The notes beneath the pieces are model-generated. The model was not told the origin of the DNA. It saw only the letters and a program-made list of their open reading frames with translations, and did not search any database. This document shows, piece after piece, positions 47,749 to 50,494 of a stretch of DNA of 50,494 nucleotides. This stretch comes from a virus. The position numbers and the translations under genes are program-made. Where the stretch lies: positions 1 to 50,494 of IMG/VR virus record IMGVR_UViG_3300025577_000014; one strand, 5' to 3'. Each line of letters starts with the position of its first letter. Position 1 is the stretch's first letter.

Positions 47749-48294
47749 ATGATCAAACTAGTAGATCTCTTAAATGAGATAGATATACCAAAAAATACAT
47801 GGACAACTATACCATCTTCAGAATTACAGGATTATGATGAAGAAATATTCAAATTAATTTCTACAGCTTATGCTCCTATTGGTGGTCATCCTAATTTTAC
47901 TTCTCCGGACTCAATAACAGGCAAAGAATCAGATGCCAAATATGTAGTAATAGATTTAGATAACGATGATGAAATTGATGCTCTATCAGCATACAAACAA
48001 AAAGGGTTTGGAAATAAGTTTATAGCAACGGGTCATGATGGTACTAAACCTGCTAAATCCAAAGTAGTAAATTATAGAGCAGATCTATTAAAACAACCAG
48101 GATATTATATAGAAGTATCAGGAGCATGGATAGATATTCTTTCTTCTAAGGGTGTAGAACCAGTTGATGATGAAGAATTGGTACGTAAAGTACTTAGGGG
48201 TAAAGATATTGAATGGTTAGGCAACGGAAAATATAAGAGAAATATAGCAGGAAAGTTATATACAAAAACATTAATGGGAAAACCAACAGTATGA
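47749..48294 (+). CDS. Putative head-packaged protein with N-terminal tag (181 aa)
   Basis: The first ten residues, MIKLVDLLNE, end in Leu-X-Glu and match in length and style T4 capsid-targeting peptides such as that of the internal proteins (MKTYQEFIAE), cut after Glu10 by the prohead protease. The body has KYVVIDLDNDDEIDALSAYK, GNKFIATGHDGTKPAKSKVV and an IDILSSKGVEPVDDEELVRK stretch. It reminds me of a conserved phage protein annotated as acetyltransferase-like, but I cannot show the GNAT acetyl-CoA motif. The stop overlaps the next start (ATGA). Confidence 0.5.
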   Translation: MIKLVDLLNEIDIPKNTWTTIPSSELQDYDEEIFKLISTAYAPIGGHPNFTSPDSITGKESDAKYVVIDLDNDDEIDALSAYKQKGFGNKFIATGHDGTKPAKSKVVNYRADLLKQPGYYIEVSGAWIDILSSKGVEPVDDEELVRKVLRGKDIEWLGNGKYKRNIAGKLYTKTLMGKPTV

Positions 48295-49088
48295 TAAGTT
48301 TAGTACAATTATTAAAAGAAGCACAAGGTAATCCAAAAGCGATTATCTTAGCAGGAGCACCTGGAGCAGGTAAAGGATATATTTTAAAGGGTTTAGATTT
48401 AGGAGGTCTGAAAGTAATGAATATAGATGACATTTATATTAATATGCTTAAAAAAGCGAATGTTAGTTTAGATTTAAAAAATGCTACACCTGAAGAAAGA
48501 AGCGAACAAGCTAAACAAATGGCGGCTGCAAATAAAGAATTTAAAGGAAATATAGCGGCTACTATAGAAGGAAAAGAATCATTTATACTAGATGGTACAG
48601 CAGCTTCAGTAAAATCAACAACAACCTTAAAATCAGAATTAGAAGAAGCAGGATATGATGTATTTATGCTTTATGTTTATACTGATTTAGAACGTTCACT
48701 TAAACAAAACCAAGATAGATTTGAAAAATCAGGAGGTGAAGATAGAAGTTTAGCACCTGCTATTGTAATGCGTACTTGGGCTGGTGTAACTAGAAACTAT
48801 GATGCTTATAAAAGTTTGTTTGGTAACAATTTTGTTTCAGTTGCTAATACTTTAGAAGATGAAAAATTAAGTGATTTAGAAAGTATAGTAGATAAGTACT
48901 TAACACCATTCAAACCTACAGGAACTAAACCTAAAGATGAAAAAGCAAAAGCCAGATCAGCTAAAGCAAAAGCCAAACTAGATGGTGAGTTAAATGCTTT
49001 ATTAGCAGATGATGGAGTTAAAGATATTATAGATAATTCAGTATCAAAAGAAGAAGCACAATCTAAAATAAAACAATTTTTATCTTAA
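48291..49088 (+). CDS. P-loop kinase / zeta-toxin-like protein with N-terminal tag (265 aa)
   Basis: The N-terminal MISLVQLLKE repeats the tag of the gene before, with Leu-Lys-Glu at residues 8-10. The Walker A motif GAPGAGKG is at 22-29, followed by VMNIDDIYI and a switch segment FILDGTAASVKS. MLYVYTDLERSLKQNQDRF and the following Arg/Thr-rich helix fit the lid of polynucleotide-kinase or zeta-toxin type P-loop enzymes. The C-terminal 60 residues are Lys/Ala-rich (AKARSAKAKAKLDGELN). The substrate could be a nucleotide, a nucleic-acid end or a peptidoglycan precursor as for zeta toxins. The stop shares one base with the next start. Confidence 0.62.
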   Translation: MISLVQLLKEAQGNPKAIILAGAPGAGKGYILKGLDLGGLKVMNIDDIYINMLKKANVSLDLKNATPEERSEQAKQMAAANKEFKGNIAATIEGKESFILDGTAASVKSTTTLKSELEEAGYDVFMLYVYTDLERSLKQNQDRFEKSGGEDRSLAPAIVMRTWAGVTRNYDAYKSLFGNNFVSVANTLEDEKLSDLESIVDKYLTPFKPTGTKPKDEKAKARSAKAKAKLDGELNALLADDGVKDIIDNSVSKEEAQSKIKQFLS

Positions 49089-50494
49089 TGAATTTAACAA
49101 GTTATTTAATAGAAGGGTTATTACCTGAAGAAGAAAAGAAAAAGGTAGTAGCAGTATATGGTGGTGGTTTTAAACCACCTACTTCTGGTCACTTTGAAGT
49201 TGTAAAACAAGCATTAAAAGAAAACCCTGAAATAGATAAAATGATTATTTTAATAGGTGGTAAACCAAGAAATGGTATTACACCTGATGAGTCTATTCTA
49301 ATTTGGGATATCTATAAAACATACTTACCATTTAAAGTTGAAGTAAAATACACATCAGTACCTCCTATAAAAGGTATTTACAATTATGCTAAAGAACACC
49401 CAGATGAAGAAGTATTATTTATTATAGGTGCTAGAGAAGGCAACGAAGAAGATTTTAAAGATATAGCATCTAGAACAACTTCATTAGATAAATACCCAAA
49501 TTTAAATTTACGTACCATTGTAACACAAGGTGGTGTTTCAGGTACAGCAGCTAGGAATGCATCTAAAATATCATTAGATAAATTTAAACCATTTGTTCCA
49601 TCTGAATTATCAGATGAAGAAGTAGAACAAGTATATAACATAGTAGCTGATAAAATTACTGAGAAAAAAGAAGCATCTAAAGTTAAAACACAACGTTTAA
49701 AAAAGTTAAACGAAAACAACAAAGTAGACGAATTAGAATCACTTTTAGATAAATGGTCAGCATACTCAGGACAATATGATTTACTACCAGATATAGCAAA
49801 ATTAGCTAAAAATTTAGGAGTAAATAATGGTCCTTCTATTGTATATAGAGCAGTACCTGGTTTAGATGAATACCCTTATACTAAACAAGAAGTTATAGAC
49901 TATGATAAAGAACAGGAAATAGTAGCAACAACCCCTACCAGAAAACAAGCAGAATATTTTATTACAGATAATGCAGACTGGGCTTATATTTTAGAATATA
50001 AACCTCATATTGTTATCAATTTTGATGAATTTGAAGAAAAATATGGCTGGTCTGGAAATTGGGGCGAAGGTGAAATATTAATCGATGTAACTAAAAGTAA
50101 GTTAGTTAATATAGAAGATTATACTAAAAAACAAAATATAAACGAAAACGCTTCATATTCCCAACATATAGATGTTCAAGATAAAATAGCTCAATTAACA
50201 CAACATATGATTGATAAGGGTATGAATATTGAACCCTTACCTACACTAGAATTTGTAGATGGAGACTCAAAAAATGCTAGCGATTTTTTCGGTAAAACAG
50301 CGTATTATGACCCGAACAAACAACACATCGTGTTATATACTGAAGGTAGACATCCAAAGGATATAGTACGCTCATATGCGCATGAAATGATACACCATAT
50401 CCAATATCTAGAGGATAGATTAGGAGATGTAGCAGGAACAGATACAACAGAAGATGACCATTTAGATAAAATAGAACAAGAAGCTAATTTAAGA
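49088..50494 (+). CDS. Multidomain nucleotidyltransferase / ADP-ribosyltransferase-like / HExxH protein (3' end outside window)
   Basis: Open to the window edge; 469 residues visible. Residues 1-9 (MNLTSYLIE) are a tag ending in Leu-Ile-Glu. Residues 20-160 are a cytidylyltransferase-like fold: GGGFKPPTSGH (25-35, the HxGH-type site) and SGTAAR (151-156, the ISSTxxR-type site), as in NMN adenylyltransferases. Residues about 215-345 fit an R-S-E ADP-ribosyltransferase: Arg254 in VYRAV, ATTPT (280-284) in the Ser-Thr-Ser position, and Glu327-Gly-Glu329 in GEGEIL. Residues from about 355 lead to HEMIH (432-436), a metallopeptidase zinc motif, with EQEA (463-466) as a possible third ligand. Leu207-Asn-Glu209 and Ile351-Asn-Glu353 lie at the two domain joints and match (L/I)-X-Glu cleavage sites. 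Domain calls are by motif only. Confidence 0.6.
   Translation, partial: MNLTSYLIEGLLPEEEKKKVVAVYGGGFKPPTSGHFEVVKQALKENPEIDKMIILIGGKPRNGITPDESILIWDIYKTYLPFKVEVKYTSVPPIKGIYNYAKEHPDEEVLFIIGAREGNEEDFKDIASRTTSLDKYPNLNLRTIVTQGGVSGTAARNASKISLDKFKPFVPSELSDEEVEQVYNIVADKITEKKEASKVKTQRLKKLNENNKVDELESLLDKWSAYSGQYDLLPDIAKLAKNLGVNNGPSIVYRAVPGLDEYPYTKQEVIDYDKEQEIVATTPTRKQAEYFITDNADWAYILEYKPHIVINFDEFEEKYGWSGNWGEGEILIDVTKSKLVNIEDYTKKQNINENASYSQHIDVQDKIAQLTQHMIDKGMNIEPLPTLEFVDGDSKNASDFFGKTAYYDPNKQHIVLYTEGRHPKDIVRSYAHEMIHHIQYLEDRLGDVAGTDTTEDDHLDKIEQEANLR

Follow-up and report, generated by a model that had tools for sequence, protein, structure and literature searches.

A predicted capsid-targeted cargo polyprotein of a T4-like phage with putative prohead protease sites between its enzyme modules

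In phage T4 the cleavage consensus of the prohead protease is (L/I)-x-E, and we assume this consensus to hold for the proteins described here. Prohead proteases of the T4 type cut after glutamate (PMC5694885), and both T4 gp21 and its relatives from giant phages, which share this specificity, free core proteins of their capsid-targeting propeptides (PMC5694885, PMC9958956, PMC9026906). The internal proteins of T4, Alt among them, carry an N-terminal tag of 10-20 residues which ends in a Glu site and is removed by gp21. The heads of phiKZ and SPN3US are processed by a gp21-related protease which recognises a Glu-ending motif and cuts several sites per substrate, ejection proteins included, but these multiple sites are located in discarded propeptides and not between functional enzymes (PMC5694885, PMC10052503). 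Polyvalent proteins are large proteins of an injected type which unite swappable, unrelated enzymes, a zincin and sometimes an ADP-ribosyltransferase (ART); in the portion of that account considered here their processing is attributed to zincins and no inter-domain code of prohead protease sites is described (Iyer et al. 2017, PMC5512222). The family to which the gene studied here belongs resembles the T4 system in its tag, in the presence of an S77/gp21 protease and of gp23 in the same phages and in an enzymatic cargo that is expected to be injected. While T4, however, encodes one cargo protein per gene and its enzyme-bearing internal proteins lose the N-terminal propeptide only, the present family has such sites repeatedly along a single chain, where they separate as many as about nine unrelated domains. 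Compared to the same portion of the polyvalent protein account, the module set is a different one, comprising a NadD/CoaD-like nucleotidyltransferase (NT), superoxide dismutase (SOD), cupredoxin and HAD nucleotidase. A search of the open-access literature yielded no paper on prohead protease sites between enzyme domains.

The window, i.e. the whole stretch of 50,494 nucleotides analysed, derives from a 50 kb uncultivated viral contig. The gene under study (49088-50494, plus strand) is a single frame of 469 amino acids which starts with ATG and is still open at its 3' end where the contig stops. A preliminary description had ascribed motifs of three enzymes to this one frame and (L/I)-N-E triplets to the borders of its segments. 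Indeed, GGGFKPPTSGH, SGTAAR, R254, ATTPT, EGE 327-329 and HEMIH 432-436 are all in place, as are LIE 7-9, LNE 207-209 and INE 351-353, the latter two exactly at the joints. A further joint triplet, ITE 190-192 at the end of NT, had not been listed. In the entire protein [LIVM]xE occurs only nine times (E at 9, 14, 45, 192, 209, 215, 261, 303 and 353), five of these occurrences being situated in the tag or at joints. The tag itself, with the sites LIE-9 and LPE-14, resembles a T4 capsid-targeting propeptide (Table 1). A near-identical complete gene of 795 amino acids (L083, JAAEPJ010000459.1) displays the order NT - basic module - ART-like - zincin - Zn ribbon - HAD nucleotidase. The contig harbouring it is binned in a bacterial MAG and carries a phage gene cluster; it is probably a mis-binned phage contig. 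Both in L083 and in L004 the basic module is intact between KITE and KKLNE. In the window protein residues 193-206 (KKEASKVKTQRLKK), a part of its tail, are its only remains, so that this protein exhibits the loss of a module.

Table 1. Features of the window gene and of the two genes preceding it. Slashes mark predicted cuts.
Feature	Coordinates	Strand	Basis or remark
Tagged neighbour gene, MIKLVDLLNE/IDIPK...	47749..48294	+	Tag as on stand-alone modules
Zeta-toxin-type kinase, tag MISLVQLLKE/AQ...	48291..49088	+	PF06414 E 8e-17
N-terminal tag MNLTSYLIE/GLLPE/	49088..49129	+	Two [LI]xE sites, E9 and E14
NT, HIGH-superfamily nucleotidyltransferase, residues 21-187	49148..49648	+	Motifs, PHROG 395, Foldseek
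Junction triplet ITE (190-192)	49655..49663	+	ITE/G at equivalent place in L083 and L004
Remnant KKEASKVKTQRLKK of the C-terminal tail of the deleted basic module	49664..49705	+	Whole in L083 and L004
Junction triplet LNE (207-209)	49706..49714	+	Linker statistics, held-out set
ART-like module, residues 210-350 (R254, ATTPTRKQAEYF, EGE 327-329)	49715..50137	+	Motif level only
Junction triplet INE (351-353)	50138..50146	+	SINE/NASYSQ in L083
Zincin-like metallopeptidase ZnA, HEMIH 432-436, ends at contig edge	50147..50494	+	HExxH, downstream E

The proposed nucleotidyltransferase is confirmed at the level of its fold. Besides the motifs GGFKPPTSGH and SGTAAR, the NT of the window protein matches PHROG 395 (E 2.6e-4), and a Foldseek search with the model of L083 retrieves NadD and CoaD (best E 2.7e-6 for NadD; TMt up to 0.78 for CoaD), the best structural matches being NaMN and phosphopantetheine adenylyltransferases. 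With TSGH representing (H/T)xGH, SGTAAR representing SxTxxR and a NadD/CoaD fold the module belongs to the HIGH superfamily. The model of L083 has a mean pLDDT of 66.6; NT and HAD are modelled with high confidence, and the values are low near the Zn ribbon, in the ART-like module and at the majority of the linkers. Low confidence at most of the joint linkers is what is expected of flexible links.

Viral contigs contain 246 relatives of the window protein. The compared set consists of 63 related proteins, and 55 non-redundant proteins were used to build HMMs and linker statistics; modules were defined by these HMMs, single-linkage clustering of segments having merged most of them. The family is built from at least 16 interchangeable module types and, like polyvalent proteins, combines unrelated catalytic domains within one chain in shuffled order. 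NT almost always comes first, ZnA is almost always there and HAD is usually last, while the variable middle contains basic, KGK, ART2, ParB-like and Zn ribbon modules, a second, HExEH-type metallopeptidase, a module with weak similarity to RegB and others. Among relatives, modules have been acquired, lost or exchanged at the putative cut sites. In L053 (3071-6832, 1253 aa) an Fe/Mn superoxide dismutase and a plastocyanin/azurin-type copper domain are accommodated between cut-site linkers, which suggests packaged redox enzymes, and L116 (1602 aa) comprises SOD and zeta-type kinase modules, the kinase being placed after NIKE/. A cultured member is gp088 of Flavobacterium phage vB_FspM_immuto, which is annotated as a plain enzyme, namely NMN adenylyltransferase. 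It comprises NT, ZnA and ZnB modules, and its HAD nucleotidase is the next, separately tagged gene; unlike the window protein it begins with an additional region similar to a polymerase-beta-type nucleotidyltransferase. Predicted cut sites in gp088 and gp087 include LAE ahead of the NT, MAE ahead of GRYDT and LLLE ahead of ESDF. Judged from sequence, the window gene belongs to a large group of polyproteins from marine phages whose unrelated enzymes have predicted cut sites between nearly every pair. This arrangement suggests that the enzymes are packed as one chain, cut in the head and injected as a kit.

The linkers of the homologues strongly support the initial proposal of a T4-like polyprotein with (L/I)xE sites at its joints, as the triplet is kept there although the modules change. 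Within the 55 proteins [LIVM]xE is present in 124 of 132 distinct linkers compared to 44.7 ± 4.9 after shuffling and 19.2 ± 3.8 in within-module windows, and it is seen in 43 of 47 ordered module-pair types. When linkers are clustered below 50% identity, 37 out of 42 contain it (versus 13.8 ± 2.6), and in held-out proteins, which were fetched later by other queries, it occurs in each of the 29 linkers (versus 10.7 ± 2.3). Break points determined by BLAST, i.e. independently of the HMMs, lie within 5 residues of the triplet in 45-58% of cases (18% expected). Inside the modules, [LIVM]xE is rarer than expected (275 versus 459, ratio 0.60), particularly as [LIV]NE (4 versus 24), whereas terminase, portal and oxidoreductase controls contain it at 1.22-fold of expectation. 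Of the few linkers devoid of the triplet (eight among 132), four (FEN... after the second metallopeptidase) seem to result from a module border set one residue early as V-F-E is found in L072 and L014. Some modules, SOD above all, hold internal [LIVM]xE which cleavage would have to spare through folding. At the junction sites P3 is L, I or V, valine being common, while P2 is variable and mostly N. This pattern looks like selection for the specificity of a protease.

It is conceivable that the chain is not cleaved at all but works as a whole in the infected cell, the [LIV]xE linkers merely representing flexible spacers or recombination seams. The location of the swap points at these linkers and the prevalence of one 9-mer, TTAAATGAA, which encodes 27 of the 206 junction sites, are in line with this view. 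Yet these 206 sites are coded by 96 different 9-mers, which indicates a constraint on the protein and not on the DNA; a recombination seam in the DNA therefore does not suffice to explain the triplet. In addition, the constraint concerns [LIV]-x-E, as the control triplets [LIVM]xD and [LIVM]xK are not enriched in linkers, and it is accompanied by the depletion inside modules. Moreover, stand-alone genes, which need no linker, retain tag and site. An uncleaved multidomain protein thus appears improbable to us.

The triplet precedes the NT domain in 48 of the 55 family proteins. Counting against packaging by means of the tag, about nine members lack it at their N-terminus (e.g. L062, L065, L070, L076, L079, L106, L116 and L118), and a stand-alone ZnA gene in L136 is likewise untagged; upstream tags with other start codons were not seen in the tag-less members, in-frame stops being close upstream. 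Stand-alone SOD genes invariably carry a tag (10/10, e.g. MIKLLDLLTE/, MITLLEILKE/, MKLMSILTE/), and so do stand-alone copies of the basic module (Bas, 4/4), of ART2, of the RegB-like module, of Fer and most HAD genes. The two genes directly upstream of the window gene (47749 and 48291) follow the same pattern. In immuto, Pfam identifies gp070 as an S77 protease (PF03420, E 9e-35) and the capsid protein as Gp23 (PF07068, E 6e-84), and homologues of these two share a contig with a polyprotein in six viral contigs; the window contig carries no head genes. Every one of the gp23-like capsid proteins shows four conserved [LIV]xE within its first ~60 residues compared to 4-8 in the remaining ~480, the last of the four being located where the propeptide would be expected to be cut off. 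Finally, the triplet is also present in the prohead protease itself. From these sites shared by capsid protein, protease and cargo, and from the Glu specificity of gp21-type enzymes, we infer the prohead protease to be the enzyme which cuts the chain inside the head.

A competing candidate for the cutting enzyme is ZnA, which might be a self-processing protease or else an injected effector. The HExxH metallopeptidase recognised at the outset (residues 354-469) holds at the motif level, H-E-x-x-H and the downstream Glu ligand being invariant in an alignment of 24 sequences, while beyond the motif Pfam gives weak matches to M91 (E 0.006 in immuto gp088) and DUF6782 (E 0.0015 in L058). Self-processing of a polyvalent protein by ZnA before or after injection would agree with its occurrence in essentially all polyproteins of the family, and, in the portion of the polyvalent protein account considered here, processing by zincins is proposed and P1 DdrB is reported to be processed before packaging (PMC5512222). 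The triplet, however, terminates the tags of stand-alone proteins without ZnA and is found both in the propeptide of the capsid protein and within the prohead protease, and a cut after [LIV]-x-Glu fits the known T4-type prohead protease (PMC5694885). Since identical sites occur in tagged stand-alone proteins, capsid protein and prohead protease, a trans-acting enzyme of the gp21/S77 type is the simpler cutter, and we consider cleavage by ZnA unlikely. By the same token, the original notion of a self-contained polyprotein is probably wrong.

We are rather confident that the window gene stems from a T4-like (gp23/gp21-type) phage and encodes a capsid-targeted cargo polyprotein which is cut by the prohead protease and then injected, with tag and sites pointing to delivery into the host. 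The tag would target the chain into the prohead core, where the S77 protease, acting in trans, would cleave every [L/I/V]-x-E linker behind its Glu and strip the tag. Judged from L083, this would free NT, the ART-like module, the zincin, the Zn ribbon and the HAD nucleotidase, and these predicted enzymes would reach the next host along with the DNA and become active immediately.

The ADP-ribosyltransferase proposed for residues 210-350 is a candidate on the basis of its motif letters, R, S and E being present between residues 254 and 329. The module has no relative of known function in Pfam, PDB or PHROGs, and homology searches in Pfam, PHROGs, PDB sequences, phage records, viral and genome contigs revealed none beyond L083, whose copy is 93% identical. 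Accordingly, it is known from these two sequences only, from which an AlphaFold model of pLDDT 43 was obtained. The different module ART2 of other members gives weak Tox-ART-HYD1 matches (E ~2e-4 to 8e-3, below the Pfam cut-off). A dedicated effector in which an NAD-making and an NAD-consuming domain are functionally paired, as the preliminary description had envisaged, could draw on the NadD/CoaD-like NT, the R-S-E-like motifs and the ART2 matches elsewhere in the family, but it is the least probable reading, since the window-type module is present in 2 of the 63 proteins, NT is combined with other modules in most relatives and the ART assignment is at motif level; the pairing is not a conserved unit but incidental to module shuffling.

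More generally, it seems fairly probable that tailed phages use a polyprotein strategy in which the capsid-maturation protease frees up to about nine injected enzymes from one tagged chain in the head. As the [LIV]-x-E code is common to capsid, protease, single-gene cargo and linkers, any module could be added to the virion by placing it between two sites. Two known ideas, the capsid-targeting tags of T4 and the injected polyvalent proteins, are combined here in a packaging code that can be tested. On the basis of nothing but sequence it allows the packaged phage proteins, their cleavage positions and the injected products to be predicted. The predicted injected set comprises SOD, cupredoxin, zeta kinase, metallopeptidases, ART-like enzymes and an NAD/CoA-type nucleotidyltransferase. 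Such a code could guide protein delivery via phage heads.

Between polyprotein and terminase gene, arrays of short genes with near-identical tags are observed, e.g. at about 13962-16980 of L098. The tags include MDNFDLKKYLAEGRLxxE, which occurs six times in G003, MKKSELxxxIKEEI and RRMQKLAGIITEEQLNE; these arrays are probably further classes of packaged cargo. A second large gene of the same phages, L082:29007-31532 (immuto gp079), and its homologues show repeated [LIV]NE at intervals and may represent another polyprotein. Lastly, three large genes of the window between 24640 and 41305 (ORFs 24640, 30208 and 36905) contain long GxQGxxG repeats of a collagen-like type and probably code for tail-fibre proteins.
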